In this document: positions 3,065 through 42,781 of the stretch, one piece after another
How positions within the stretch are numbered: the first letter of the stretch is position 1
Layout of the letters: the number at the start of each line of letters is the position of its first letter
Origin: Candidatus Zixiibacteriota bacterium
GTDB taxonomy: Bacteria; Zixibacteria; MSB-5A5; GN15; PGXB01
Length of the DNA stretch: 64,000 nt
Reading direction: 5' to 3'
NCBI GenBank assembly: GCA_016933955.1
Contig: JAFGTT010000019.1
Location: 1-64,000, forward strand
Made by a program: the position numbers and the translations under genes
Notes under the pieces: generated by a model
Database searches by the model: none
What the model saw: the letters and a program-made list of their open reading frames with translations, nothing else
Told to the model about the DNA's origin: nothing

Positions 3065-4105
3065 TTGACTACAATCCTGGCAACGGTCTTCGTCCTTGGC
3101 GTGCTGGTTTTTATTCATGAACTGGGTCATTTCCTGGTTGCCAAATGGGCCGGTATCAGGGTCGATAAATTTTCTCTTGGTTTTCCGCCCAAAATTATTT
3201 CCAGGAAGTGGGGCGAAACAGAATATGCCATCGGCGCAATTCCGCTGGGTGGCTATGTTAAAATGGCCGGCGAGAATCCCGATGATGATGCTCGCGGCGA
3301 ACCATATGAATTCATGTCAAAACCGGTCTGGAAAAGATTCATGGTGATCTTTGCCGGACCGTTCATGAATTTCGTCCTGGCCGTACTGGTTCTGACGGGT
3401 TTGTATATGGTCCGTGGTAAGGAAATCCAGGCCGTTTTCATCGGCCAGGTGGCGCCCGACAGCCCGGCCGCCGCCGCCGGTATCCGGACCGGGGATAAAA
3501 TTCTAAGTGTCGATGGGGTCAGGGTTACCAGTTTCCGCGAGATGGCGGATATTGTCTATAAGAAAGTGGAACAACCGGTCGAGATTTCCTGGGAACGGGA
3601 CAACCGGGTTTTCACCGATACCCTGGTAACCTACCGGAACAAGGTGGAACTGGTCTCGGGCGATTCGGCCGAGGTCGGCATGATCGGTATCGGCAGTCAG
3701 GCGGTTTATCGGAAATATGGTGTTTTTACCGCCCTGGGCGCCGGTTTCGAGCAGTCAGTGGTCTATGTCAGGATGGTTTTTGAATTCGTTTGGGGGTTGC
3801 TAAGCCGCCAGGTTGATGCCCGCGAAATCGGCGGCCCCATCCTGATCGGTAAACTGGCCGGGGCCACGGCCCGGGCCGGCTTCGATGTCCTCCTGGAATT
3901 TTTAGCCCTGCTCTCCATCAACCTGGCCGTCCTCAATGTCCTGCCGATTCCGGTTTTCGACGGCGGACACCTGCTGTTTCTGCTGGTGGAAAAACTGAAA
4001 GGCTCGCCGCTTTCTATCAAGGCGCGGTTAATCGCCCAGCAGGTAGGCATTGCTTTTATTCTGATTCTGGTGATTTTTGTGACTTTTAACGATATCACCC
4101 GTTAA
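3065..4105 (+). CDS. rseP: RIP zinc metalloprotease RseP (site-2 protease)
   Basis: An inner-membrane intramembrane protease that cleaves transmembrane segments, classically of anti-sigma factors already cut on the periplasmic side. The HELGH zinc motif is at H18-H22 in the first membrane helix, the second conserved motif N-x-x-P-x-P-x-x-D-G-G begins at N291 with ligand D299, and one PDZ domain sits at about 120-190 ('PDSPAAAAGIRTGDKIL'). At 346 residues it resembles single-PDZ forms rather than the longer E. coli form with two. The start is TTG at 3065. A possible client elsewhere in the window is the single-pass anti-sigma factor at 38733-39431; that link is inference. Confidence 0.95.
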   Translation: MTTILATVFVLGVLVFIHELGHFLVAKWAGIRVDKFSLGFPPKIISRKWGETEYAIGAIPLGGYVKMAGENPDDDARGEPYEFMSKPVWKRFMVIFAGPFMNFVLAVLVLTGLYMVRGKEIQAVFIGQVAPDSPAAAAGIRTGDKILSVDGVRVTSFREMADIVYKKVEQPVEISWERDNRVFTDTLVTYRNKVELVSGDSAEVGMIGIGSQAVYRKYGVFTALGAGFEQSVVYVRMVFEFVWGLLSRQVDAREIGGPILIGKLAGATARAGFDVLLEFLALLSINLAVLNVLPIPVFDGGHLLFLLVEKLKGSPLSIKARLIAQQVGIAFILILVIFVTFNDITR

Positions 4106-26714: not shown

Positions 26715-29138
26715 CTATTTTAGAAAGTTGAGTTTCTTCGTTGCGGTTTTGTTGTCGAATCTCGCATTCAGGAAATATATGCCGCTGGCCAGAGCATTAT
26801 TATCGAGGTTATCGAAATCAAGAATATAATGATAACTCCCGGCCGATATTTGTTCAAGAGCCTCGCCGTAGACTTTCCGACCGAGAACATTATATATCGT
26901 TATGTCCAGATTTCCCGAATGAGGAATATCAAAAAGCAGTTTGGTCGAGCTGTTAAAAGGATTGGGATAACACTCACTGATAGCGAATTCCCGCGGAATC
27001 AGGGGTGTTTCCTCCTCTTCAAAAACGGAGGTAGCCGGACACCCGATTGAATTCAAAACATCGGCTGGATAGTTGCCATTGCGGAGTAAGGCGCAAAAAT
27101 CGCTTCCCAGGTAATCGAAGGCACTGGCAAATTTCCCGGTTGCCATGATGAGGTCGGATCCCAATCGTTGGTAGATTTCTCTGAAGGATATATCGAGATT
27201 ATCCTTTTCCGGATCCATTTCGATCGGGGAATAATCATACATATCATAGAGAATGCTGGCGATAACACCTTCAACTTCATTACCGTCGCAAATTCCGCCG
27301 GTATTTTCCCAGTCATTATCTTCGATATTGACGTACAAGGGATCAATTACGGAATAATTATGGTTGACCATAACGGCACATTCTTTGTAATCGGGAACAA
27401 TTGCCGAGAAAAACTCGGCCCATCCTTCGGCAAAGGCGGTGATAGTATCGGTGCACCAATCGACATCATGATATGGATAAGTCGTAAAATACCAGGGTGC
27501 CACAGCGTCAAAGTGAACCATATGACCGAATTCGTGTTGAATCACCCGATTATAGTACATGTCTTCTTCATATCCGCTTGGCAGGCTCAGAGTTCTGGTT
27601 GTTCTCGAATACGAACCAACATCATCCCCAAGTTCGTGGATAACGCGGAAAGTAATCAGGTTGTTGGTAAAACTACAGCCATTATTGTTCATAAAATTTC
27701 TGGTTTTATTCATTGTGGAGACGGCATTCATTCCGGAGTTGAAGACTGAATCATCATAGGCGTCGGGATAATCATCGAAAGCATTAAGACATACTTCATA
27801 GGGATCGGGTTCATAATAATATTCGGATATGGCGCCGATGGTATAACTTGAAGGTCCATCATAGACGATATATTCGTTCGGCTTATCGAGATAGGCTTCT
27901 ATATAGAAGAAAGTTTCATTTTGGGGAATCTCCAGCTGGAAATATCCCCAGGAATCGGTTGTAGTTTCATCAATTGTGTTAAATCCGGCATATGCCCTTA
28001 CCGGAATTCCGACCGCCTCATCGAATCCCCATTGCGTGTATGGGGGGCCGTCCCATTCATCCCAGTCAAAGTATTCTACGCATCCTTCCATTATTATATT
28101 CCAGTACAAATCAGCAAGATGTTCGCAATTATTCATCTGTTCAAGATAGGATTCCTCGTAGTAATTATCGGGATCGACAACACCAAGGATGTGAAAAACA
28201 TCATCACTGGTCATTTCGGGATAATATATTTCCAGATTAACCAGCACTTCATTACCCCATTGGAATTCAACGCATTCGAAATCCTGTTCATCATCATAAT
28301 AATAATCATCGCAGGTAACGGGGCCGGAAGCATACAAGCGGGCTTCGACTTCAAAGCCGGGAGGAACATCATCAGGGCCGGTATTTTGGACGTAAAATGA
28401 TATCGTCGGGGGATCGGTGCGTGGAGCGTAAAGCTCAACGAATGATGGCCAGGTATAACTGGTGACACGGAAATCCAAATCCAGGGGATCATGTTCCAGG
28501 GTAATCTCCGGGTTGTCCCCGCCATAGTCGGCGTATTCGACATAGACCATTAATTCCTCGGCTTGAGAAACATAGTATGAAATCGTGACGCTGCTATAGT
28601 AGTTGCAATAGTCATCACAACTGTAGTCACTAGCATACCATGCATTTTCGGGATCGGAAGCATCGGCCGGGCAGATGCCCACAAAAGCCCAGCTTTCAGC
28701 CCAATCGCCAATGTTGTCTATGGTTACAGTCACCCATCCGGTGTCGGGATAAAATTCCCATGTAAAACAGGAATATTCCTCGAACCAGGGGTAGAAATAA
28801 TCATAGTAATATTGACTGCCCCAGTAAAGCTGATAAACGTCATCACAATAATCGCACCAATAGGGGCAATACCGGCTTTGAGAACCGGCCTCATCTTCCG
28901 GGGTTTTTGCCTCCAGATTGTGTTTTGCCCGATCTACCTTCATAAATTCGAGTACCGACTGGGGCAAATCAGGAATCTGGCGTGGTTCCATCTGATCGGG
29001 ATCGATTACCTTTTTGACTGTACAGCAGGTTTTCTCGGAGGAAAAGACTGCTGTTGAGCCGAACAGGAAAATTAGAATCAGAAGCAGGATGACCTGTGGA
29101 ACCGCCCTTGACCTGTTTAATATTATCATATTTGGCAT
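26715..29138 (-). CDS. Secreted zinc metalloprotease with C-terminal sorting domain
   Basis: About 807 residues from ATG 29138 (AAGGAA lies 8 bases upstream; a TTG two codons earlier is less likely). A signal peptide is followed by a cysteine- and Tyr/Asp-rich region, an Ig-like middle ('LDFRVTSYTWPSFVELYAP'), and a catalytic domain with HEFGH (first His at residue 535) and a downstream 'AEGWAEFFSAIVPD' that should supply the third, glutamate ligand of a gluzincin. The last 85 residues form a sorting domain: 'CYPNPFNSSTKLLFDIP', 'YNVLGRKVYG', 'ASGIYFLNA'. Such domains direct export through type IX-like systems. It is a close paralogue of the upstream gene, whose zinc motif is destroyed. Exact peptidase family not assigned. 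Confidence 0.85.
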   Translation of the reverse strand: MPNMIILNRSRAVPQVILLLILIFLFGSTAVFSSEKTCCTVKKVIDPDQMEPRQIPDLPQSVLEFMKVDRAKHNLEAKTPEDEAGSQSRYCPYWCDYCDDVYQLYWGSQYYYDYFYPWFEEYSCFTWEFYPDTGWVTVTIDNIGDWAESWAFVGICPADASDPENAWYASDYSCDDYCNYYSSVTISYYVSQAEELMVYVEYADYGGDNPEITLEHDPLDLDFRVTSYTWPSFVELYAPRTDPPTISFYVQNTGPDDVPPGFEVEARLYASGPVTCDDYYYDDEQDFECVEFQWGNEVLVNLEIYYPEMTSDDVFHILGVVDPDNYYEESYLEQMNNCEHLADLYWNIIMEGCVEYFDWDEWDGPPYTQWGFDEAVGIPVRAYAGFNTIDETTTDSWGYFQLEIPQNETFFYIEAYLDKPNEYIVYDGPSSYTIGAISEYYYEPDPYEVCLNAFDDYPDAYDDSVFNSGMNAVSTMNKTRNFMNNNGCSFTNNLITFRVIHELGDDVGSYSRTTRTLSLPSGYEEDMYYNRVIQHEFGHMVHFDAVAPWYFTTYPYHDVDWCTDTITAFAEGWAEFFSAIVPDYKECAVMVNHNYSVIDPLYVNIEDNDWENTGGICDGNEVEGVIASILYDMYDYSPIEMDPEKDNLDISFREIYQRLGSDLIMATGKFASAFDYLGSDFCALLRNGNYPADVLNSIGCPATSVFEEEETPLIPREFAISECYPNPFNSSTKLLFDIPHSGNLDITIYNVLGRKVYGEALEQISAGSYHYILDFDNLDNNALASGIYFLNARFDNKTATKKLNFLK

Positions 29139-29238
29139 GAGCAAATTTCCTTTTTGATTAAGTGAATCTGGTCAAATCGAAAAATCTGTTATTCCCATAA
29201 TTCAAAATTGTTTACCGCCATCAATCCGGTTTCCGGGC

Positions 29239-29270
29239 TGAGGATGCAGGTGTTCGAGACGCCCGCATCC
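29239..29270 (-). other. Stem-loop in the leader of the metalloprotease gene
   Basis: GGATGCAGGTGT (29242-29253) and ACGCCCGCATCC (29259-29270) can form a 12-bp stem with one mismatch and one wobble in the minus-strand transcript. It lies in the 196-bp gap between the two protease-like genes and could be an intercistronic processing or attenuation structure. No U tract. Confidence 0.5.
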
Positions 29271-29334
29271 CCCGGCACCGGTTGCAAGAGAATCAGTGAT
29301 AATGTACTCCGCCTAAATACATATCCCGAATCTC

Positions 29335-31575
29335 CTACTTCAAATAATTCATTTTCCGTGTCGCCGTTTCCGCGCCAAACGTAACCTTCATCAGGTAGAT
29401 TCCACTGGCCATATGGCGTCCGGACAGGTTGTCGAAATCGATGGAATAACTGTAATGCCCGGCGGCCACCTGTTCAAGTGTCTCGGAATAGACACGCCGG
29501 CCAAGAATATCGAAAATCTCAACCGCCACATCGCCGCTTCGGGGAATATCGAATTCCAGGCGGGTCAGACTGTTGAACGGGTTGGGATAATTCTGGCCGA
29601 TGGCGAATTGCTCCGGAATCAGCGAGGCATCCTCTCGTTCAAAGACCGAGGTGGCAATACAGCCGATCTGACTGGAAAGAAAATCCATGTCGTACTGGGC
29701 ATTCTCCATCAGGTTACACCAGGGTTGCTGCTGATCCTGGAATTCGATGTAGGTGAAGACATTGGCCAGATCGCAGGCATCCTGTGGATTATCCTGATTG
29801 ATATGATTGTAAATACCGCTGAAGGCGACATTGAGTTTCTCATTGAAATGGGCCGGTGGATTATCATAAGTCTCCGACGGCGAATTATCGTAGAGGTCGA
29901 AAAGAAGGCGGGCAATTATACCCTCGATCTTTTCTCCCTGTTGGCTGGATTCCCAGTCATTGGTTTCGATGTTGTCGGCCAGATAGCCGCCGGAGTTATA
30001 TAACTGGTTGAGCGAGACGGCGTTGACATCAATGTCAGGAATAATTGCCGCCATGAAGGCATCCCATCCCTTGATATAGGCCCAAGTCGCGTTGGTTACG
30101 ACGTTAAGACCACTGGTTCCGGGGGTGGTCAGGGAAATATTGCCGACCAAATCGTAGAGGACCATTTCGGCTATCTGTCGCTGAACGATACGGTTATAGT
30201 AATACAGATTATTGTACCGTTCCGGGAGATAAATAGTCCTATTACTACTATTGTAGTTACGGTTAAAACCGGTCGGGGCAATATCGGATGTAACCCGGAA
30301 ATTGACCTGACCCGGATTGTATGTGATACCATTGGCGGCCAGGAATTGCTTGACTTCATTAAGCATGTTCCTGGCGTTAAGACCGATATTGAAAGCCTGA
30401 TCATTATGAGAAGTCGAAGGTGACAGGATAATCGGGGCGGGATCAATGGTTAACTGATCATAGCCTATTTTAATCTGCTCGCTGGTAGCATCATCACGAA
30501 CAATAAAATCCCCGTATTCATAAAGGTCAGCGTAGCAATTGAAAGTCTGGCCAGCTGGTAAGGACTGCTGAGATATTTCGATTTCGAAATCACCTTCAGC
30601 ATCGGTATAAGTGGAGTTCAAATAGTAGCCGCTGGAGTTGTAGATAGTCACCTCGATGCCATCGCCATAGTCGCTATAAACAATGGGATAAGTGGGTCCG
30701 GGCCAGTTTTCCAGATCGTTATACCTGACAAAGCCGTTAATCACATGATTCCAGTAGATATCGGCTATTTTCAGGGCATTATTCCCGGTTGTCGGATAGA
30801 CACTGGGTGTCGGATCTACCACCGCCACGACATTGAAATGGGTTCCGGAGGACATATTAGGATTGCTGATATTAAGGGTGATAGTTTCATCCTGAAAGAC
30901 AGTGAAATAGACGTACCAGTAGTCCTGCCTGGTGTGAGTGGTATAATTGGAAATCGTCACACTCTGATCGGCATAAAGCTCAACCGGGATCTCCCAGAGT
31001 TCAGGGGGGAAGTCATCGTGACCGATATTTTCCACTTTGAAAGTAAAGGAAAGGTCATCATCCTTGGAGGCGTAGACCGCCTGCACGGCCGGGTTGGTTA
31101 CGCTGGTGATCTTAACATCCAGATCCAGAGGATCATGGGTGATATGAACCACCGGTTCATCCCAGGGGCCGCCGGCATAATATTCGATATGGGCGATCCA
31201 TTCCTCGGCGTAGGTTACGCTGTAGGATACGCTGACACTATTTCCGGTGCTGGTGGCCTGTCGGACCCAGGAACCGCTTAATACCGGGCGTATGGCCACC
31301 ATAGCGTGACTGCCCTCGGTGTTATTAATGTTGGTAACAGATAAGGACAAACCTCCGGTATCGGGATAGAAATAGAAATCATGGCAATAGGTTTCATACT
31401 GGAACGGATCGAGTTCCAGCGAATAACTACTGCTGTGATAATCAAGATCATCCCAGTATTCCACATCACAATCGGCCCGGGCTGACCGTAATCCGAAGGC
31501 TATTATAAAGATGACCAGAACGGTTATCAGCAGAAACCGTAAAGGTTTATATTCAGTTTCAGGTTTATTTAACAT
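29335..31575 (-). CDS. Secreted metalloprotease homologue lacking zinc ligands (pseudo-protease)
   Basis: 746 residues with signal anchor/peptide, Ig-like region, protease-like domain and C-terminal sorting domain ('QNYPNPFNSLTRLEFDIP', 'FDILGRRVYS', 'MASGIYLMKV'). It aligns along its length with the product of 26715-29138. At the place of the neighbour's HEFGH it reads R466-Q-I-A-E470 ('NRIVQRQIAEMVLYDL' against 'NRVIQHEFGHMVHFDA'), and the neighbour's 'AEGWAEFF' is 'IKGWDAFM'. All three expected zinc ligands and the catalytic glutamate are gone, so it should be inactive although the reading frame is intact. It follows the gingipain-like gene by 15 bp. Possible roles: inhibitor, chaperone or adhesin partner. 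Confidence 0.85.
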   Translation of the reverse strand: MLNKPETEYKPLRFLLITVLVIFIIAFGLRSARADCDVEYWDDLDYHSSSYSLELDPFQYETYCHDFYFYPDTGGLSLSVTNINNTEGSHAMVAIRPVLSGSWVRQATSTGNSVSVSYSVTYAEEWIAHIEYYAGGPWDEPVVHITHDPLDLDVKITSVTNPAVQAVYASKDDDLSFTFKVENIGHDDFPPELWEIPVELYADQSVTISNYTTHTRQDYWYVYFTVFQDETITLNISNPNMSSGTHFNVVAVVDPTPSVYPTTGNNALKIADIYWNHVINGFVRYNDLENWPGPTYPIVYSDYGDGIEVTIYNSSGYYLNSTYTDAEGDFEIEISQQSLPAGQTFNCYADLYEYGDFIVRDDATSEQIKIGYDQLTIDPAPIILSPSTSHNDQAFNIGLNARNMLNEVKQFLAANGITYNPGQVNFRVTSDIAPTGFNRNYNSSNRTIYLPERYNNLYYYNRIVQRQIAEMVLYDLVGNISLTTPGTSGLNVVTNATWAYIKGWDAFMAAIIPDIDVNAVSLNQLYNSGGYLADNIETNDWESSQQGEKIEGIIARLLFDLYDNSPSETYDNPPAHFNEKLNVAFSGIYNHINQDNPQDACDLANVFTYIEFQDQQQPWCNLMENAQYDMDFLSSQIGCIATSVFEREDASLIPEQFAIGQNYPNPFNSLTRLEFDIPRSGDVAVEIFDILGRRVYSETLEQVAAGHYSYSIDFDNLSGRHMASGIYLMKVTFGAETATRKMNYLK

Positions 31576-31590
31576 ATTTCTCCCACCTCC

Positions 31591-34500
31591 TTATTTCACC
31601 AGCTGGAGACACATGGTGCGGACATGTTCGGCATACTGCAGACGAACGAAGTATATTCCGCTAGCCACCGGTGAACCGGAATCGTTGCGGCTGTTCCATT
31701 GAACGGTGTTGTAACCGGCCGAAGCCTCATCATCCCAGAGCGTTCGGACATGCTGACCGAGAATATTGATCACGTCGATACGAACCTTGCCGGTTTGGGG
31801 CAGGGAGAACGGAATGACCGTGATCGGGTTGAATGGGTTGGGATAATTCTGGAACAATTCGGGTGTTTCCGGAAGCATGGTATGATCCTGTTGATCATCG
31901 AAGCTGGTATAATAACCGGTCGAACGGAAAACGAATTCGTAATGATACCCAACGGGTGCGTCCGGAATGTCGGTAAAAGTCAGCCGGATAATATCGGTAG
32001 GCATCAGGTTGACAAATTTCCCATCGGCGCTGAGAATGTCATTGGGATCAATTTCATTGTCATTAAATGAGGCCGAGTGCGGCATAATTTCGCGTATAAT
32101 TACTTCCTTCCGCAGGGCCGGAGTGATTTCAATACGATCGATATCCAGTTTGGTCTGCCAGCTCAGGGTAATCATGCCGTCCCGAACAAAATCGCGGGGT
32201 ATTTTATAGGAAATAGTGGATGGATAAACCCTGGGTGCTGCGGCCAGTTCCAGTATTCCGTCTTTCTCCGAAGACACCATCAATTTCATGGGTGTGAAGG
32301 TGTCGGTCAGGCCGTTGGGCTTGTTAATTATATGCGACAGTTTCGTTCCGGTACCATCGTTATTTGCACTTTCCTTGTTGAGATGGACATTCACGAGAAG
32401 ATCATCATAATCGGCATCCTCGGGAATATTGACATTGATATAGAGCGGGCCATAACCGATATAAGTTTCCGAATCATAAAGAGTCACAAGATCGGTGATA
32501 TCGGCTTCATCGGTGGTGACGGTTGACAGGCACTGAGCCTCGGGTGAAATGTAAGCATTATCACCGTTCGACGAGAAGGCCAGATCGAGATCATCGGGGA
32601 CTTCAACCAGGAGGAGCGATAAACGATCAAGGTAGGAACGCTCGAACTCGATTTCGCGGACGTCGAGATCGATTGAGCCGTTTGTCACTTCCGGGTAGTA
32701 TTGCAATTTATAGAAGTCGGTCACGATCTGACCGCGATTGGCCGGATCTTCCGACTGAGTCAAAATAGTATTATCGACGACAAAACCCTCGGAGGTTTTA
32801 ACATAAACAAACGGACAACTGCCGCCGGAACTCCCGGTTGTCACCGAAATGGTGCGTTTTTTGATGACAGTATTGCCGCCCTTGTCGTACACCTTGAGCG
32901 TGACATAATCGGTACAGGTATAGCTCGGGGCGTTATAGGTTACCGATGGACCGGAACCGGTAATGGTTCCCCGAACAGCGCTCCAGACATAAGTCAGTTC
33001 ATCGCCCCACCGTTCATCGTATTCAAGGACGGTAGCACTGACGGTGGTGGAATGACTGTAAACAATGGAACTGGGGCAACTGAACGAATACAGGAAAGGT
33101 TTAGTTCCGAGGATATTATGGGTCCGGTGGGAATCGTGGCCATAAACGGGCCAGGCGAACTCCGCTCCGGCATAGGTTTCCTCAAGATCCCAAACCTTGA
33201 CTTCATCACCGGCACAGACCAGATGAAGGTCATCATATGATATCATGGGCGTCAGGGCGGGAATTCCGCCGGCGCCATCGGAAATCGGGAAACCCGGAAC
33301 CTGGTCACCGTTGATTTCATAGGCATAGGTACTACTGCCGTAATTTAGAACGATTTCGAAATCCCCGTCGCCATCGATATCGCCGACCATAGGATTATTG
33401 ACAAAATCGGTGACGACGATATTACGTAGTGTTTTCGGCCAGCCGTCGATGAAATTACCGGCCTGATCGATGATAAAGAGCTGGTCATGTATGATACCGA
33501 CGATTTCGAGAACACCATCATCGTTGACATCAATAACCGAAGGCATGGTAATCGAGTACCAGATCTCTTCCGAACCGAATGGTTCTTCGGGCCAGTCGAA
33601 AATAACCGAACCATCGGCATCGATAATATATAGGTTGTCCATGGCATTGTTGACCAGGATTTCGAGGCCCTCATCGGTGACATCGAAATTGGCCAGTAGC
33701 GGCGTCGAGAGCAAACCGCTGGAGGCCACGCTGACAGGGAAATTGGGCAGGAGATCACCTGAAAGATCGAAAGCATAAACATAGCGGTAGTGTAAACCGT
33801 TTCCATCAACTCTGCCGGTGACAACGAGTTCAAGCTGTCCATCGCCGGTCAGATCCCCGAGGGCCACGCCGGAATAGGTACTGCAAGTATCAGGCATCTG
33901 ATAGAAATCGATGGTTGATCCAATCAGGGGCGTCCCATCATGGTTCATGGCGCAGACGGCGCCTTTATAGGTCACGGTGAAAAGTTCATAATAGCCGTCG
34001 TGATCGACATCGGCAATAGTAACCGGGCAGAACATGCTATTATGGTTTTCCGGAAGGGAAACCGGCCAGCCGCTTAAAGCGCTGCCACCCGAGGAATTGC
34101 CATTATTCTGGAAAGCGTAAATTTTATGGTCGGTTCCACTGGAAGTGGCAAAAAGATCGTACTTGCCATCATTGTTGACATCCTCGCCCGAAAGCGTACT
34201 CCAGGCCAGGGAGGCGTCGGCATCGAGAGCGGCATAAATCGGACAAGTTTCCGATTTGGGTGCCCCGACGCAGTTAAACCAGTAGATATTATTCTGATGG
34301 CCGACAAAAGTTGTCCGGTAATAATATGAAGGTTCAATCGGGGCGATCAGGGGAGCGGAAGTGTATGAGGACTGCTCACCCGGCCAGAAATTCGGCATTA
34401 ACGGGTTGGTGGCCGTTTCATATTCTTCGGAAATCGGTCCCTGGCCCATATCCTGATGGAGCAATTCCACTTTGTAAAAATAGGTGGTATTGGCCTCCAG

Positions 34501-37371
34501 GCCTTCATCGATATAATAGGTCGCGCCGGTTATCGGCAATTCATTGACCTTGACAAAAGCACTTGTAGTTGTTCGCCGATAGAGGTTGTACCCGGACAGC
34601 TCGGAATTATCCTCATGGTACCAGGTGAGGTATATTTTATCCGGATAACAACGGAAAAGAATACTGTCGATGACGGCTGTATTGCAGTGAGCGACAATCG
34701 GCAGCGGGTAAATATTGTTATAGAAATCGTGAAATTCAAGAGTATAAGTGGCCAGCGTGTCACCGGTGACAAAATAAAATTCAAAGGGATCACCGGTGAC
34801 CGTGCTCATAGGGGGGATATCACCGAAGAAGATTGAATCTATACCCGGATCAAATATCGCCCAGTAAGGATCATCAGGGATCAGTCTACCCCAGACCTCC
34901 TCGAGAACACCCTTACCGATATTGTTAACGGTCACGGTGAAATCGATATCTTCGAAGCCACCCAGGCAGCCGTCATCGTTTCCGAATTCGGAGTCATCAA
35001 TAGTATAACCGCCTATTTCGGGGACGCCGCCGCCGATCGGGATGGTCAGCGGGAAATCAATGACAACCCAGTTAGACATGATTTCCAGATAAGGTCCCGA
35101 GAGATATTGAATATCGCTGATGGTTTCGGAGACAGTAAAATTAATGGTGTAATCTGTGACAATGGTTTCGCCGGCACCGATGGAACTGACCATGAGGTAT
35201 GGCGTATTGACAGTTATATCCGAATTGGTATTGGCCAGATAGAGAACAACATTTTCAAGGTCGGTGGTACCGGTATTGGTCAGGGTAAAAGCCATGGCGA
35301 TCTGTTCGCCGGCCTCGATCATGCCGTTACCGTTTCCGGCCGAAACAGCTGTGGAATCATCGAGATACGAGACACCTTCGAGAGTGGCAAAAGAGGTGTT
35401 GTCGTCAACCTGGATGGTTCTTGTGGCGTGCCAGTAGTTGCGTTTAGTGACACCGACGGTGATGTCATCATTGGAGGATATTTCCAGGGTGAATGATGCT
35501 ATCCCCGAGGCGTTGGTCAGGGCCGTCCCATGGAAAAAATCCTTGTAGCGAAGGGCCACCATGGCTCCCTCCACCGGGACGGTATTATCGGTGACCGTGA
35601 TCTGAATAGTTTGCTCGCCTTTGGCCACTGAGGTCGGGCAGGCGATTTCGAATTGAGAGGGCGCGTCCGACCAGACATAGAGGGTCGGGTCACCAATATA
35701 CATATAAGACAGCAGGGCTTGACGCGAAAGCCCGTCGATATCAGCACCGCGGCTGGCATTGACCAGATGGGCCATGGTGGTCATTTCCCCGATGGTCATG
35801 GCGACCGGGGATTGATAGGCATTTTCGAACATCTGGGTGTGATAGCGGAAGGAGGCATAACCGGCATCACGGGCCGGAGCCCCGATATAACCGATGGCGC
35901 CTCCGATGGGATTGTTGATCAGATGTATTGAAAGGCAATCATGGGTAATATCATTATTATGACAGGTGACGGTGCTAAATATGGGATACATCCCGTAGTT
36001 GGTCAGAAGGTCGGCATCAGCATTGGTGAAGGAAACCCGCTCATAATATTTGCGGATAATGAAGTTGTCGACATTGCTGGAATGGCCATACGCAAAAAAA
36101 ACGCTGCATCCCGAATTGAAGGCGTCGATAAGATCCTGTTTGGTATATTCCTGCTCCTCGTCACCGATGAATTCGAGGAATTTTGTGGGGGTATAACCGG
36201 ACGGTGTCAAAGCATCCAGTTCATCGATAATCCATTCGGAATCGCCTTTATAGCTGACGTAGGAACCCATATAAAGGGATTTTTGCTGGTAGCCTGAAAA
36301 CTGGGTGTCGGTTTCATACTGCTGCAGTTTATTGAAATAATTGGTAACTTCCGAAGGTGTCGAAACCGGAAGACGGCCGACAAAAACTTCCGGTAAATAA
36401 TCGACATTATCAGCCACCAATCCGATATATTCATCGAGATTTTCATTCCAGTCGCCATCAAGACAGGCATAATAATAATCGGATGGAATATAGTCGCCGC
36501 CGAGTTTATCCGACCAGATCAGTTTGGTCGGGAGAATTTCATGGCTTGCTCCCAGAAGGATGTACTGAGTTCCCCAGTTCTGATAAGCGAACCTGATGAA
36601 CTCGCGGACGTAATCAGGGGTTTCGGCCCCGACGGCAAAGTTTTCGGCGATCCAATCGAGATCGACGACTTTGGTATAGTAGCCTTGGAGAGTTTTGTAA
36701 TCGGCATAAGTTTCAAATTCGGATACCATTTCCGGGGCGGTTATGATAACAAAGGGAACGGTATTATCAATCAGATCGGGGAAAAGCGAGGCCGCCATAT
36801 CGCTTTTCAGGCGCGGGGTTGACAGAGTCAAGTAGGCGGTGATGTTTTCGCTGTAGCCGAGGCAGTTATCGGCCACGAAGCGGTCCGAGGCAACCGTGGT
36901 TATCCGCGGCTGGGCGTCGAATTTGGCCGGTTCGCTTTCAAGGTCAAATGACAGGCCGGAGACTACCATAATATTACCGCTGGTTTCGTCGAAATAGACC
37001 GGATTACATATAATGGTGGCCAGGTTGTACCGGGCCAGGCGGCCTGATCCGGCCAGAGTAATCGGTTCATGAGGAAGAATTTCCTCGATTTCCTCAATAT
37101 CCGCGGCCGTGATTTCATATGCAATCACAACATTGTTGACGTTGAGGGTGGTGGCTCGATGGTCGGGCGGCAGGAGAACCTGCCGTAATTCCGACAGGCC
37201 GGCAGAAGCCTGCGCCAGATTAGCCGGGTTCGGTTCATTCAGCATTGACTGTAAATAATCGTTATTGATCTCATAATTGATTTCAAATGAGAATCCACTG
37301 ACCGTCATGAATAGCCCCCAGGCGGCGATAACGGCGACAATCAGCCTCAGGGTAGATGCCCTGTTAAGCAT
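31591..37371 (-). CDS. Gingipain-family (peptidase C25) giant secreted protease with sorting domain
   Basis: 1926 residues with a signal peptide. Residues about 220-570 match the C25 caspase-like fold: 'CSVFFAYGHSSN' gives catalytic His430, 'IFSTVTCHNNDI' gives catalytic Cys470, and 'GGAIGYIGAPARDAGY' follows as in RgpB. Beyond it lie Ig-like domains, an FN3-like domain ('CYPDKIYLTWYHEDNSELSGYNLYRR' region, about 905-1000), and FG-GAP/VCBS-like propeller repeats ('DVDHDGYYELF', 'GDLTGDGQLELV', 'DVNDDGVLEIV', 'GDIDGDGDFEIV'; about 1090-1390) that probably bind calcium. The C-terminal 85 residues are a sorting domain ('QNYPNPFNPITVIPFSLP', 'VASGIYFVRLQY'). It heads the secreted-protease operon. 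Confidence 0.92.
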   Translation of the reverse strand: MLNRASTLRLIVAVIAAWGLFMTVSGFSFEINYEINNDYLQSMLNEPNPANLAQASAGLSELRQVLLPPDHRATTLNVNNVVIAYEITAADIEEIEEILPHEPITLAGSGRLARYNLATIICNPVYFDETSGNIMVVSGLSFDLESEPAKFDAQPRITTVASDRFVADNCLGYSENITAYLTLSTPRLKSDMAASLFPDLIDNTVPFVIITAPEMVSEFETYADYKTLQGYYTKVVDLDWIAENFAVGAETPDYVREFIRFAYQNWGTQYILLGASHEILPTKLIWSDKLGGDYIPSDYYYACLDGDWNENLDEYIGLVADNVDYLPEVFVGRLPVSTPSEVTNYFNKLQQYETDTQFSGYQQKSLYMGSYVSYKGDSEWIIDELDALTPSGYTPTKFLEFIGDEEQEYTKQDLIDAFNSGCSVFFAYGHSSNVDNFIIRKYYERVSFTNADADLLTNYGMYPIFSTVTCHNNDITHDCLSIHLINNPIGGAIGYIGAPARDAGYASFRYHTQMFENAYQSPVAMTIGEMTTMAHLVNASRGADIDGLSRQALLSYMYIGDPTLYVWSDAPSQFEIACPTSVAKGEQTIQITVTDNTVPVEGAMVALRYKDFFHGTALTNASGIASFTLEISSNDDITVGVTKRNYWHATRTIQVDDNTSFATLEGVSYLDDSTAVSAGNGNGMIEAGEQIAMAFTLTNTGTTDLENVVLYLANTNSDITVNTPYLMVSSIGAGETIVTDYTINFTVSETISDIQYLSGPYLEIMSNWVVIDFPLTIPIGGGVPEIGGYTIDDSEFGNDDGCLGGFEDIDFTVTVNNIGKGVLEEVWGRLIPDDPYWAIFDPGIDSIFFGDIPPMSTVTGDPFEFYFVTGDTLATYTLEFHDFYNNIYPLPIVAHCNTAVIDSILFRCYPDKIYLTWYHEDNSELSGYNLYRRTTTSAFVKVNELPITGATYYIDEGLEANTTYFYKVELLHQDMGQGPISEEYETATNPLMPNFWPGEQSSYTSAPLIAPIEPSYYYRTTFVGHQNNIYWFNCVGAPKSETCPIYAALDADASLAWSTLSGEDVNNDGKYDLFATSSGTDHKIYAFQNNGNSSGGSALSGWPVSLPENHNSMFCPVTIADVDHDGYYELFTVTYKGAVCAMNHDGTPLIGSTIDFYQMPDTCSTYSGVALGDLTGDGQLELVVTGRVDGNGLHYRYVYAFDLSGDLLPNFPVSVASSGLLSTPLLANFDVTDEGLEILVNNAMDNLYIIDADGSVIFDWPEEPFGSEEIWYSITMPSVIDVNDDGVLEIVGIIHDQLFIIDQAGNFIDGWPKTLRNIVVTDFVNNPMVGDIDGDGDFEIVLNYGSSTYAYEINGDQVPGFPISDGAGGIPALTPMISYDDLHLVCAGDEVKVWDLEETYAGAEFAWPVYGHDSHRTHNILGTKPFLYSFSCPSSIVYSHSTTVSATVLEYDERWGDELTYVWSAVRGTITGSGPSVTYNAPSYTCTDYVTLKVYDKGGNTVIKKRTISVTTGSSGGSCPFVYVKTSEGFVVDNTILTQSEDPANRGQIVTDFYKLQYYPEVTNGSIDLDVREIEFERSYLDRLSLLLVEVPDDLDLAFSSNGDNAYISPEAQCLSTVTTDEADITDLVTLYDSETYIGYGPLYINVNIPEDADYDDLLVNVHLNKESANNDGTGTKLSHIINKPNGLTDTFTPMKLMVSSEKDGILELAAAPRVYPSTISYKIPRDFVRDGMITLSWQTKLDIDRIEITPALRKEVIIREIMPHSASFNDNEIDPNDILSADGKFVNLMPTDIIRLTFTDIPDAPVGYHYEFVFRSTGYYTSFDDQQDHTMLPETPELFQNYPNPFNPITVIPFSLPQTGKVRIDVINILGQHVRTLWDDEASAGYNTVQWNSRNDSGSPVASGIYFVRLQYAEHVRTMCLQLVK

Positions 37372-38202
37372 ATTAACCTCCCATAGATTTTGGTTAACTA
37401 AGGTTTAAGTTCGCGGGCAATCGGAAAAGACGGCACCGCATCGGTGGATGGGACATGTGCAGAAATGTGCAATCAAGACGGATGGCGGACAATTCTAAAT
37501 ATATATTTCAATAAGAGGTTGTACCATGGTACATTGATTTACGTAATAGTCGGCGGTCCGATGCGCATGCATAATCATTTTCCTAAATCAGCCTTTTAAC
37601 CGATAAAACAGCATGCTTCTCATTCCGGTCTGGCGGAGAAACCGATTTCGATGTTATGACTGCCGGATTTCGATGCAGGTTATCGGGTAGAGATCATAAT
37701 ATTCAATCCTGATATCCTGCGGAAACATGCCTTTACAGCTCCGGATAGCTTGAGCGGCAACCATTTTAAGACCCGGCGCTTGACTTCCTGATGAAATTCG
37801 TCCAAGCGAGGGGTATTAAAGCCGTTTCTGGAAAGATCCCGGGCCAAGCATTAAATAACCAAGTGGTGCCTATCACCCCCAATCATTGTGTAGCAGAGCG
37901 ACTCGCCCCCCGGCCGAAGTCGTCCGGGTTCATAAATCAAATGGTCTCGCCAAGTTAAATTTATTTATCCTTTGAGCCGGTTAAATCGAATATTATCAAT
38001 CCGTTTGGCCACCGGTATATTTGATAACAATGGCGTCGGATACTTAACCGGGACAATATTTGCTTTTTCGTCTCATTGCATTAATTTCCGCGAGATGGGA
38101 AATCTTACAAATTTTTTTAAAGACTTTATTTATCCGGTAAAAAGCGCTTGGTGCCGGCGTGATTGCATACTATATTGTATTCAAGTACTTGTGAGGCCCC
38201 CC
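37372..38202. other. Intergenic region between divergent protease and sigma-factor operons
   Basis: 831 bp with no supported gene. A frame open upstream of the sigma factor from 37972 has no ribosome-binding site and no family-like sequence, so I leave it out. The region must carry the promoters of both operons; I cannot pick a convincing ECF-type AAC…CGTC pair by eye. Confidence 0.55.
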
Positions 38203-38736
38203 GTGAATCAATTGGTACAGCAGGCGGCCAAGGGTGATAAATTGGCCGAGGAAAGACTTTTCCGGCATTTACATGCCCGATTTGTCTTTCTGGCAAGAAA
38301 ACGAATAGGTTTGGATTACGCCGAAGACGTGGCGCAGGAAGCCTGTATGATTATCATTCAGAAACTGAAATCGCATGAAAAACCGCCGAATTTCGAAGCC
38401 TGGGCTTATATGATTCTCAGAAACAGTATCGGTAATTATCTTAAAAAAAGCATGGTTCGCCAGAACCGGATAGGGGCGGGCGATTATGTCGATCATCCCG
38501 ATAAGGTTCATGTTTCCGATCCCGATTATGATTTGCGGCCGCTCCTGATCGAGTGCCTTAGGAAACTGGTATCGATATTTCCGCGCTATGCCAGGGTGTT
38601 GAATCTTATTCACCATGGCTATGAAACCGATGAAATCTGCCTGCGGCTGAAGGTCAAACCCAACCACCTATATGTTATTTTAAATCGAAGCCGTAAAATG
38701 CTGAACAGGTGCATGGATAAAAGAGAGGCTGGATGA
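38203..38736 (+). CDS. ECF-family RNA polymerase sigma factor
   Basis: About 177 residues from GTG 38203, chosen because the family domain starts there ('NQLVQQAAKGDKLAEERLF') and GTGAGG precedes it. Region 2 has 'YAEDVAQEACMII', the usual D-x-A-Q-E motif that contacts core polymerase and melts DNA. Region 4 is 'LRPLLIECLRKLVSIFPRYARVLNL … YETDEICLRLKVKPNHLYVILNRSRKML', a helix-turn-helix for the -35 element, with somewhat divergent residues. The stop overlaps the anti-sigma start by 4 bp, the classic sign of a sigma/anti-sigma pair. The third gene is an exported TPR-CHAT protein. The divergent protease operon is a natural candidate target. Confidence 0.85.
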   Translation: MNQLVQQAAKGDKLAEERLFRHLHARFVFLARKRIGLDYAEDVAQEACMIIIQKLKSHEKPPNFEAWAYMILRNSIGNYLKKSMVRQNRIGAGDYVDHPDKVHVSDPDYDLRPLLIECLRKLVSIFPRYARVLNLIHHGYETDEICLRLKVKPNHLYVILNRSRKMLNRCMDKREAG

Positions 38737-39431
38737 TGAAAAACCAATGCACTAATCCCAAATTGGGGGAAATGATTCATGCCTATGAGCTGAACGCGCT
38801 TTCGGAAGAAAAACGAGATCAGTTCGAGATACATTTGCTGGAATGTGAGTCCTGTTTCGAGGAGGTCCGATCTTTCGAGGCCAGAGCCGATATTATCCTG
38901 AATGATCCTGAGGTTCGACGCGATTTGAAAGCGGCGGCCGTTGAAACATCCGGTGAAAATATCCGCACCGGTATTTTCAGACGATTTCTCTGGCCTGAGG
39001 CGCCTTTTATCTTGCGACCCGCCGTGGCTTTTATATTGATACTGCTGCTTCTCTATCCCGCCTATCTCGGATTAAGGCGCAGCAGCAACCAATTAGCCCG
39101 GCCGGTGGTGTCGGTGGGATTGTTTCCCACCCGTTCTAACGGTATTGAGGCAGTTTCCGTTACGCCGGGGATGGACTTGGTGGTGTCTTTTGTCTATCAT
39201 GGGGCAACACCCGGAACCGTTTACCGGGTCAATATTTCCGATGAATCGGGCCTTCTGGTTTTTCATGATGATAACTATTCCGATTTCGATCGCTATGAAA
39301 TCGGAAATGTGCTGGTGCCGGGAAGATATCTTCATCCCGGGAAATATGTGGTAACGATAGCCGAAACCGGAGGGAAGAGGACCGACGGACGGCAGGTGTA
39401 CGAGTTCCGGATTGAGATAGAAAATAAGTAA
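38733..39431 (+). CDS. Zinc-finger anti-sigma factor, single-pass membrane protein
   Basis: 232 residues. The N-terminal domain has the ZAS motif H-x3-C-x2-C in 'EIHLLECESCFEEV' with upstream 'LGEMIHAYELNALSEEKRDQF', which should bind the sigma factor in the cytoplasm. One membrane segment follows ('PAVAFILILLLLYPAYLGL', about 90-110), then a beta-rich periplasmic domain of about 120 residues ('MDLVVSFVYHGATPGTVYRVNI', 'PGRYLHPGKYVVTIAE') that looks Ig/FN3-like and may sense a ligand. Release of the sigma factor would need proteolysis; RseP is encoded at 3065-4105. It starts inside the sigma gene's stop and lies 53 bp before the CHAT gene. Confidence 0.85.
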   Translation: MMKNQCTNPKLGEMIHAYELNALSEEKRDQFEIHLLECESCFEEVRSFEARADIILNDPEVRRDLKAAAVETSGENIRTGIFRRFLWPEAPFILRPAVAFILILLLLYPAYLGLRRSSNQLARPVVSVGLFPTRSNGIEAVSVTPGMDLVVSFVYHGATPGTVYRVNISDESGLLVFHDDNYSDFDRYEIGNVLVPGRYLHPGKYVVTIAETGGKRTDGRQVYEFRIEIENK

Positions 39432-39484
39432 CTTTCGAAATTTATATTTTTCCGGGTCAGGTCATAAATCTTTAAGGTGGGGTC

Positions 39485-42400
39485 ATGATTATTAAAAGAG
39501 CACATGGTCTGCTGATTTTCCTTATTTCTATTTTTATCGCCGGCTCTGGCCAGGGGGGGGAACAGAATGCCGGGGTTGGATTCCATGATGAAATCCGCGG
39601 TCTGCTTATAAAGGCGCGCGAATTTATGGATAACGGCGAATTTGATTCGATGCTGACGCTGGCCACACAGGCACAAGAATTGGGCGAAAGTAATCCGAGT
39701 ACGCCGGACTCGACCATGGCGGGCATACTCAATATGGTTGGCCTGAGTTACTACTGCCGGGGAAATTACGGTCTCAGCGATTCCATATACAGTCTGGCCC
39801 TGGAGTACCGGGAGAAAACCGATCCGCCCGAGGATTCTCTTATATCCGATATAATCGGGAACATTGCCAAACTCAAGATTATAACAAGTCAGTACAGTGA
39901 AGCCGCGGAGTATCTCAATCAATCGCTGGCTATTCGCGAGAGGATTTTCGGGGAGGATCACCTGGAGACGGCCAAATGTGTGAGTTATCTGGCGGTTCTG
40001 TATTATTACATGGATGAATTTCAGAAAGCGATCGATTACAACAATCGCGCTCTTGATATTCAGATAAAAAATCTCGGCCCCAATCATTATGACGTGGGGA
40101 TGACCCTGAACAACCTGGCTATTGTATATGATGATATGGGCCGATATACCGAGGCGGAATCGCTGTATCATAGATCCCTGGAAGTCCAACAGGATGTTTT
40201 CGGGCCGGGGCATTACAATATCCTGAGTATTATGTACAACCTGACGCTACTGAAGACCAACCTTGGCAAGTACAATGAAGCCGATTCCCTTAACAGGGAA
40301 ATTCTCGAACAGGCCAAAACAACGATCGGACTGGAGCATCCTTTGATCGCCATGGTGATGGATGTATATGCTCTCAACGATCGGCAGATGGGCAGATATT
40401 CCTCGGCCATTATTTATCATCAAAAAGCGCTGGAGATAAGAAAACGGGTATTCGGGGAGAAAAACGCCGATGTGGTTATGAGCCTGAGTAATATCGGTCG
40501 TTTGAACCTGGAGATGGGCCAGTATGACAGGGCTCTTGCGAATTTCGAGAGAGTCCTGGCAATTGAGGAGGATCTGGAAGATATCCGCCCGCTGAACCGG
40601 GCCAGTACCTACGCCAATCTGGCGGTTATTTACAATGTCACCAGAGAATATGATAAGGCATTGGAATACGGCAAAAAATCTCTTGATATCAAGATCGAGA
40701 TTCTCGGAAATGAACATCCGCTGTTAGCCAGCGATTATCAGAACTTATCCAACGTTTATGATAATCTGGGGGATTATAAACTCGCGGAGTCACTGAATGT
40801 CCTGGCCAACCAAATCTATGAGACCGCTTACGGCCGGAAAAGCTCAAGTTATGCCAAAAGTGTCAATAATCTAGGGCATCTGTACTACGGGACGGGGAAA
40901 TACGAGGAGTCGGAAAAACTGCTACTTGAGGCCCTTGATATCTATGGAGTCGATTTCGATCGAATGGCCAGTTTGCATGGTCTGGCACGTCTTTATGCGG
41001 CGATGGATAATTATGACAAAAGCCTGGAATACTACCGGCTATATATCGAAACAATGCGGAAGTTTATCAATTATGCTTTTACCTTTTCATCGGAAGAGCA
41101 AAAACTCAGGTGGATTGATCAGTATTCGCCGATGGAACATTCGCTGTTTTCCATGGCGCTTAAGTCAAACGATGAAGGGGCGCGCCGACTGGCCCTGGAT
41201 ATGGTGCTGAAGAGCAAATCCCTGGTGGTCGATGCCATTATGTCTGAGGGTGAGACCGCTTATTGCTCATACAACGACCAGATCACCGCGAAACTCAAAC
41301 AGCGTGGGAAAATTTGCACGATTATTGCCAACCTGGTAATGGCCGCTATGGGCGAAGATGAGGAGAATCCATATGGCGACAGCCTGCAGGTTCTCTATTA
41401 TATCCAGGACTCGCTGGAGACGGAAATCAGCCGGATGTGCGCCGATTTCAAGAATGATCTGGAAACCGGGGGTTTTACGCCGGAGGATATCGCCGCGGCC
41501 ATACCGGAAAATACCGTTCTCTGGGAATACGTGCGCTTTAAACCGCATGATTTCAAAGCCAGGGGCAACGATTTTATCAAGACAGGGGCGCCGCATTACC
41601 TGGCCTTTATTCTGGATCATAATGGCCGGGTCGGCCTGGTTGATCTCGGCGAGGCGACGATTATCGACAGCCTGGTGACGGTGGCAAGACGAATGATATA
41701 TGAATCCGGTTCCCGTGCTTATTCTCCACTTATCGTGCAAATGGAAAAGGAACTGAGTGAGATTACTTCACAATTAAAGGAATTGCTGTTCCGGCCGCTG
41801 GCGGAAAAAAATCCGGAGGTAAAGGATATTTATCTGGCGCCTGATGGTCTTCTAAATCTTTTGCCTTTTGAAATCCTTCCGGACAGTGGCAGTTCCTATA
41901 TAATTGAGCATTATCGCCTGTGCTACCTGTCCTCGGGACGGGACCTGCTTCGTCCGGAGGAAATATTTCCGCCAAACCCGGAAGTGGTGATAATCGCCGA
42001 TCCGGATTTCGATAATAATACCTCGGAAATGATCGCCATGAAGGGTAAGGCGACCGATGACTCCGGAATGGTAAGTCTGTTGATATCGCAACCCGACCGG
42101 GGATCGGTGGAATGTCTTAAGGATGGTTTCCGTCCACTTCGATACGGGCGCGAGGAATCCGCTTTGGTGGCCGAGGCTTTCTGGAAAAATGGGGCAAACG
42201 ACGTTCGAGAATTTTGCGGATCCGAGGCCCGGGAGGAGATAATCAAGGGACTGGATCGCCCTCCCCGCGTTTTGCATTTTACGACCCATGGTTTTTTCTG
42301 CAGTTCCGAGAATGATGATCATGAGAAAATACTGGTCAATCCGCTACTCCGCTCCGGTCTCGCCCTGGCGGGGGCCAACCGGATTATAAAAGACAGGACC

Positions 42401-42781
42401 AAACCGGCATCGGGTATTGAAGACGGTTTGCTGACCGCATTTGAGGTTTCCCGAATCAACCTGATGGGGACCGAGCTGGCGACGCTATCCGCCTGCGAAA
42501 CCGGGGTCGGCGAAACATCGAGCGGGCAGGGCGTATTCGGCCTGAGGCGGGCTTTTGCCCATACCGGGGTACGATCTATCCTGATGACTCTCTGGAAAAT
42601 TCCCGACCGGGAAACGGCGGAATTGATGGATGGATTTTATCGGGGCTGGCTGGGGGGCAAATCGAAGCAGGATGCTCTCCGGGAATCGGCCCTGGCTATT
42701 TTGAATCGTCTCCGCGCCGAACGGGGAACCGGCCATCCGGTTTTATGGGGTGGTTTTGTTTTGAACGGGAATCCGGATTAA
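39485..42781 (+). CDS. Exported TPR-CHAT protein (caspase-fold protease)
   Basis: 1098 residues. A signal peptide ('LLIFLISIFIAGSGQG') predicts export, which is notable because characterised CHAT proteases act in the cytoplasm. Residues about 50-530 carry some ten kinesin-light-chain-like TPR units of 42 residues, each with a pattern like 'YDVGMTLNNLAIVYDDMGRY'. A helical linker is followed by the C-terminal CHAT domain (about 800-1098) with catalytic His935 in 'LHFTTHGFF' and Cys1004 in 'TLSACETGVG', then 'GLRRAFAHTGVRSILMTLW' and 'WGGFVLNG'. The dyad is intact. It is the third gene of the sigma/anti-sigma operon (53-bp gap). TPRs probably present a partner to the protease; the substrate is unknown, and the anti-sigma factor is one candidate. 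Confidence 0.92.
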   Translation: MIIKRAHGLLIFLISIFIAGSGQGGEQNAGVGFHDEIRGLLIKAREFMDNGEFDSMLTLATQAQELGESNPSTPDSTMAGILNMVGLSYYCRGNYGLSDSIYSLALEYREKTDPPEDSLISDIIGNIAKLKIITSQYSEAAEYLNQSLAIRERIFGEDHLETAKCVSYLAVLYYYMDEFQKAIDYNNRALDIQIKNLGPNHYDVGMTLNNLAIVYDDMGRYTEAESLYHRSLEVQQDVFGPGHYNILSIMYNLTLLKTNLGKYNEADSLNREILEQAKTTIGLEHPLIAMVMDVYALNDRQMGRYSSAIIYHQKALEIRKRVFGEKNADVVMSLSNIGRLNLEMGQYDRALANFERVLAIEEDLEDIRPLNRASTYANLAVIYNVTREYDKALEYGKKSLDIKIEILGNEHPLLASDYQNLSNVYDNLGDYKLAESLNVLANQIYETAYGRKSSSYAKSVNNLGHLYYGTGKYEESEKLLLEALDIYGVDFDRMASLHGLARLYAAMDNYDKSLEYYRLYIETMRKFINYAFTFSSEEQKLRWIDQYSPMEHSLFSMALKSNDEGARRLALDMVLKSKSLVVDAIMSEGETAYCSYNDQITAKLKQRGKICTIIANLVMAAMGEDEENPYGDSLQVLYYIQDSLETEISRMCADFKNDLETGGFTPEDIAAAIPENTVLWEYVRFKPHDFKARGNDFIKTGAPHYLAFILDHNGRVGLVDLGEATIIDSLVTVARRMIYESGSRAYSPLIVQMEKELSEITSQLKELLFRPLAEKNPEVKDIYLAPDGLLNLLPFEILPDSGSSYIIEHYRLCYLSSGRDLLRPEEIFPPNPEVVIIADPDFDNNTSEMIAMKGKATDDSGMVSLLISQPDRGSVECLKDGFRPLRYGREESALVAEAFWKNGANDVREFCGSEAREEIIKGLDRPPRVLHFTTHGFFCSSENDDHEKILVNPLLRSGLALAGANRIIKDRTKPASGIEDGLLTAFEVSRINLMGTELATLSACETGVGETSSGQGVFGLRRAFAHTGVRSILMTLWKIPDRETAELMDGFYRGWLGGKSKQDALRESALAILNRLRAERGTGHPVLWGGFVLNGNPD

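Follow-up and report, generated by a model that had tools for sequence, protein, structure and literature searches.

Does the caspase-like CHAT protein encoded directly behind an ECF sigma factor and its membrane anti-sigma factor act on that anti-sigma factor from outside the inner membrane? The three genes lie on the forward strand of a window of 64,000 nucleotides (the whole stretch of DNA analysed), taken from a genome within Candidatus Zixiibacteriota, its nearest named relatives all bearing that name. The first gene (38203-38736) encodes a 177-aa ECF sigma factor, matching Sigma70_r2 (3e-10), TIGR02937 (9.9e-15, spanning residues 16-170 and above its cut-off) and, in a profile search, Sigma70_ECF (1.4e-5); ECF sigma factors were defined here by Sigma70 regions 2 and 4 within 160-200 aa. 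The mechanically called ORF runs from a TTG at 37972, while homologues favor the GTG start at 38203. An ATGA overlap (38733-38736) joins this gene to the second (38733-39431), which encodes a 232-aa ZAS anti-sigma factor (zf-HC2, 3.1e-6). Its motif, H34-x3-C38-x2-C41, belongs to a helix bundle in the AF2 model that precedes a single TM helix (residues 96-118, 39018-39086; hydropathy and AF2 helix), and this arrangement, in a gene adjoining a sigma gene, is that of class I ZAS anti-sigma factors. The AF2 model shows a C-terminal beta-domain of ~110 aa, which the topology puts outside the inner membrane, and a Foldseek search with the model returned generic beta-sandwich matches, nothing more specific.

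The third gene (39485-42781) encodes a 1098-aa TPR-CHAT protein (Pfam TPR_12, 8.8e-83; CHAT, 7.6e-63) with eight TPR_12 stretches and an AF2 model of pLDDT 83.7. Its predicted signal peptide, MIIKRAHGLLIFLISIFIAGSGQG, is evident from hydropathy only (residues 1 to ~24, 39485-39556), is kept in homologous triads, and corresponds in the AF2 model to a low-confidence helix (2-21) followed by disorder. The caspase-like domain covers residues 761-1096 (41765-42772) according to the CHAT profile, the AF2 model and structure matching, and its clan CD fold carries His935 (42287-42289) and Cys1004 (42494-42496) as a predicted catalytic dyad; the protein is thus predicted to be a CHAT (clan CD) cysteine protease. 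An earlier note made from the sequence had described these genes as a sigma/ZAS anti-sigma/TPR-CHAT set with a 4-bp overlap, an intact His935/Cys1004 dyad and a signal peptide. Profiles and coordinates agree with this description, with the sigma start corrected to GTG 38203; both residues were found, and the signal is read from hydropathy.

The genome survey for such sets that the earlier note proposed was conducted on 127 Zixibacteria genomes, 86 of which contain CHAT. ORFs were called at ~80 loci around long CHATs and subjected to iterated profile searches, yielding 56 sigma/anti-sigma/CHAT triads; of the triad CHATs, one is truncated, and the other 55, whose N-termini can be read, all carry an export signal (signal peptide or lipoprotein signal). 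In some triads the three genes run in the same direction; in the others, the order is convergent and the CHAT gene points toward the sigma operon. The source genome holds one triad of each geometry. The triads are deeply diverged, and their anti-sigma factors split into class A (~230 aa, with the TM around residue 90) and class B (~285 aa, with the TM around residue 150). Both dyad residues, His and Cys, are conserved in 88/88 CHATs. About a dozen exported Zixibacteria CHATs have no sigma neighbor, and some further loci are truncated. Each of the four CHAT genes in the source genome lies within ~5 kb of a sigma gene even though just 19 sigma70_r2 matches occur there in total, and this, together with the 56 triads across the class, indicates an association beyond chance. 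The triad loci are kin by descent and their counts are not independent events; the triad is a recurrent module of Zixibacteria. At L082, L084 and L103, a single sigma/anti-sigma pair is accompanied by two or three exported CHAT genes in tandem.

The location of the CHAT protein tracks the topology of its anti-sigma partner. All 56 triad anti-sigma factors have one TM and 54 have the ZAS motif, and in a third locus type (n = 3) the exported CHAT likewise has an anti-sigma-like partner with a TM. A sister set, also present in the source genome, comprises an ECF sigma factor, a soluble protein of ~196 aa and a CHAT without a signal peptide (n = 18; L113 and L242 on contig C8 of the source genome, L232-L251 in relatives), usually with an exported protease-like gene after CHAT. 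In total, exported CHATs accompany 56 + 3 anti-sigmas with a TM, and cytosolic CHATs accompany 18 soluble ones. The soluble proteins share [VI][FY]DS...P.P.GVR, in which the Arg is invariant. In addition, CHAT distances correlate with those of the extracytoplasmic anti-sigma domains (rho 0.36-0.52, p 0.002).

Gene fusion is classical evidence that separate proteins work together, and the anti-sigma and CHAT parts are fused as one protein in myxobacteria, suggesting that the separate proteins of the window do so as well. In a Myxococcales MAG (L263:1465-4870), an ECF sigma gene overlaps one for a 957-aa zf-HC2, TM, TPR and CHAT protein that aligns to DdvA nearly full length (E 1.7e-49). Fused ZAS-TM-TPR-CHAT relatives occur in several genomes of the myxobacterial class, with the dyad kept in 7/7, and the DdvA-like relatives share HRPY..xR[SGA] past the TM. 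The AF2 model of the window TPR-CHAT protein finds DdvA (8rw5/8rot) as its best PDB match, with separases and Csx29 next. DdvA is described in the PDB as a transmembrane anti-sigma factor, and M. xanthus DdvS turns active once DdvA is inactivated (PMC4374960). The assertion in the earlier note that characterized CHATs are cytoplasmic therefore has DdvA as an exception. Given the class-wide triads, the export signals, the matched topology and the DdvA-type fusion, the exported CHAT protein probably controls the anti-sigma factor from the periplasmic side of the inner membrane.

A candidate P1 residue for a site-1 cut is Arg134 of the window anti-sigma factor (39132-39134, forward strand), part of an R-[small] motif picked out by conservation and located in a loop (131-138) after the first strand of the AF2 model. 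In 55/56 triad anti-sigmas, an Arg-small pair lies 14-32 residues past the TM, the remaining one having Lys; the Arg is invariant in class A and present in >90% of class B, and outside the zinc fingers little else is conserved. Such a pair is found in 5/19 unrelated ZAS anti-sigmas (L222, being part of a triad, was excluded). However, the Arg is also retained in six class A sigma/anti-sigma pairs that have no CHAT gene next to them (L325-L328, L331 and L334), which rules out Arg134 as proof of CHAT cleavage; the residue may be structural, cut in trans, or cut by another protease. One CHAT-less, Arg-bearing pair belongs to a genome (G022) where just short, cytosolic-type CHATs turned up. In separase, an Asp reads the P1 Arg (PMC10317155, PMC9729208). 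The position equivalent to this S1 Asp (Asp2151/Asp2070), W+8, is mostly Ala/Ser in these CHATs, and a separase-type S1 Asp was rejected as a predictor of Arg specificity for lack of conservation as Asp; an Asp at W+4 is invariant. The candidate for a second cut is a housekeeping RseP-type site-2 protease (3065-4105, forward strand; Peptidase_M50, 1.8e-69, with HELGH and a PDZ region), located where the earlier note had placed it, so that the genome contains a site-2 protease for regulated intramembrane proteolysis. A site-1 cut in the anti-sigma factor by the CHAT domain is plausible. The more specific proposal, in which the periplasmic CHAT is the dedicated site-1 protease of class-wide ECF switches, cutting after the juxtamembrane Arg, with a cytosolic version in parallel, is possible but tentative.

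Judged from sequence, the module, its recurrence, its topology, the intact dyad and the gene-fusion precedent are secure. We propose, with a probability of about 50%, that the locus encodes a trans-envelope signaling module in which CHAT acts on the anti-sigma factor, most simply by cutting near Arg134. The ZAS domain would hold the ECF sigma factor in the cytoplasm, and the C-terminal beta-domain and the exported TPR-CHAT protein would both sit on the outer side of the inner membrane. The TPR array may sense an envelope or secretion signal, the CHAT domain would act on the anti-sigma factor, most simply through a cut in the juxtamembrane loop near Arg134, and RseP, by analogy with RseA/RsiW, would finish cleavage and free the sigma factor. 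Its targets might include envelope or secreted proteins, for example divergently encoded ones. An envelope circuit with an exported CHAT acting on the anti-sigma factor had been suggested from the window, and it gains support from the triads, export signals, topology, DdvA-type fusion, invariant dyad and RseP.

The divergent gene in the window (31591-37371, reverse strand) encodes, as the earlier note had reported, a gingipain-like secreted protein (Peptidase_C25, 3.4e-62), here with a T9SS-type tail. Behind it, two paralogous T9SS-tailed proteins are encoded at 26715-31575, one with a HEFGH zinc-protease motif and the other with RQIAEM at that place, suggesting an inactive copy. The region between the gingipain and sigma genes (37372-38202) is unusually long at 831 bp, and an Rfam search of it returned no match. 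A divergent upstream gene is present in 37/50 evaluable triads, and 28/37 of these neighbors carry a signal peptide versus 54% of the background (p 0.005). C25 was found near just 4 triads, two of them in the source genome: it is divergent in the window and at L091, and it flanks the second triad of the source genome and L102. With C25 at these 4 loci only, the gingipain was rejected as a conserved part of the module, and its association is local.

Promoter motifs were searched for with bipartite counts and EM, against shuffles. Most class A sigma genes are preceded, at a distance of 35-60 bp, by the motif cTTGaC-N17-TAtaTT (leave-one-out median 9.7 vs 3.4 for controls, p 5e-10), and its window instance, GCTTGGT-N17-CTATATT (38146-38176, forward strand), is the putative sigma-operon promoter. 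This element resembles a housekeeping promoter and thus cannot be taken to establish autoregulation. Nothing on the gingipain strand matches it well, no motif emerged among divergent neighbors, and class B and divergent genes scored near shuffles. An autoregulated ECF promoter common to the sigma and divergent genes was therefore rejected, as no common motif was found upstream of both, and the earlier idea that the sigma factor perhaps drives the gingipain through such a shared promoter is not supported. The complete circuit, in which CHAT cuts the anti-sigma factor and the sigma factor switches on the divergent gingipain operon, draws on the C25 genes beside four triads and the signal-peptide-rich divergent neighbors; however, the source genome has nine C25 matches while the association is confined to those loci, and the promoters share no motif, making this reading very improbable.

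Outside Zixibacteria, the closest exported TPR-CHATs occur in Cyanobacteria, Desulfobacterota, Nitrospirae and others, mostly without sigma neighbors; a convergent triad is present at L135 (Desulfobacteraceae), and some other outside loci, few in number, are partial. Since exported TPR-CHATs are common there and usually lack sigma neighbors, CHAT is not dedicated to anti-sigma factors. Exported CHAT proteins are widespread among phyla, to our knowledge without an assigned role. At L088 (2065-8111), two genes in the same orientation come after an exported TPR-CHAT gene; by eye the product of one is FecR-like, and that of the other resembles a CHASE2-type sensor protein. The locus represents another envelope-signaling context for CHAT. 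At L335-L337 and in many genomes, the same ZAS-TM anti-sigma head is fused to a different, CHAT-free periplasmic region of ~650 aa; each genome has many such copies, which adjoin related sigma genes.

The frequency of exported CHATs without sigma genes in other phyla, together with the position of CHAT downstream of sigma in co-directional operons, would suit a downstream product of the sigma regulon, i.e., a periplasmic protease for other substrates that does not regulate the anti-sigma factor. However, the CHAT gene of a convergent triad has a separate promoter, for which no clear shared motif was evident, and both the topology covariation and the anti-sigma fusion point to an upstream role; we consider such an effector function unlikely. 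The exported TPR-CHAT protein could also bind the anti-sigma factor as RseB does, serving as a sensor or co-inhibitor that gates another site-1 protease and using its own protease for other targets or self-processing. In DdvA the CHAT domain is on the anti-sigma factor itself and can be a built-in regulatory part, retention of the Arg without an adjacent CHAT is expected for a generic site-1 protease, and periplasmic modules that are not proteases are likewise used by the sigma family. However, pure binding would not require the dyad, which is kept in all 88 triad-type and all 7 fused CHATs, and we regard this role as somewhat doubtful. Under the preferred reading, in which CHAT acts on the anti-sigma factor across the envelope, Cys1004 and Arg134 represent a concrete, testable pair of candidate site-1 protease residue and site, and the triad suggests what exported CHAT proteins may do.

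Links between CHAT and ECF sigma factors are already known from Craspase, ECF54 and DdvA. In the open-access literature, to which the search was confined (subscription papers lay outside it), no description of the exported triad was found; there, the Craspase paper alone joins a CHAT domain with an ECF sigma factor, and a review places CHAT near ECF54. In Craspase (Cas7-11/gRAMP-Csx29, Csx30 and CASP-sigma), as in the triad, a TPR-CHAT protease acts on an ECF sigma inhibitor: Csx29 cuts Csx30, relieving the inhibition of the sigma factor (PMC10028731). However, that system is cytoplasmic, RNA-guided and without a membrane step, and the similarity of Csx29 to window-type CHATs is distant (profile E ~0.01-0.02). 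None of the main ORFs between 28 and 48 kb was recognized as gRAMP/Cas7-11 or Csx30, and the sole PADLOC result was a generic TPR match; type III-E membership was rejected on the basis of this search. The ECF54 context contains CHAT and subtilase, and proteolytic control has been proposed (PMC8999054). It resembles the cytosolic sister sets, although ECF54 is described as lacking an anti-sigma factor whereas the sister sets have an anti-sigma-like soluble partner; unlike the triad, it has neither an exported CHAT nor a TM anti-sigma factor. CalpL/CalpT/CalpS similarly combines protease, anti-sigma factor and ECF sigma factor (PMC11417357), but its protease is a cytoplasmic Lon activated by cyclic nucleotides. 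RseA/DegS/RseP and RsiW proteolysis shares the one-TM anti-sigma factor and the successive site-1 and site-2 (RseP) cuts proposed here, with DegS or PrsW in the place of the candidate caspase-like cysteine protease.

DdvS/DdvA of Myxococcus xanthus (PDB 8rot, 8rw5, 8rlz) has the same constituents as the triad, i.e., an ECF sigma factor, a ZAS TM anti-sigma factor, TPR and CHAT, with His/Cys retained. However, DdvA is one fused polypeptide, whereas the window has two separate genes, an exported CHAT and an anti-sigma factor with its own small beta-domain. The Craspase logic, in which a TPR-CHAT protein frees an ECF sigma factor, may thus be one case of a wider theme that also operates across the inner membrane. 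If CHAT is indeed a dedicated site-1 protease, Craspase and DdvA would be specialized relatives of one sigma/inhibitor/CHAT theme.
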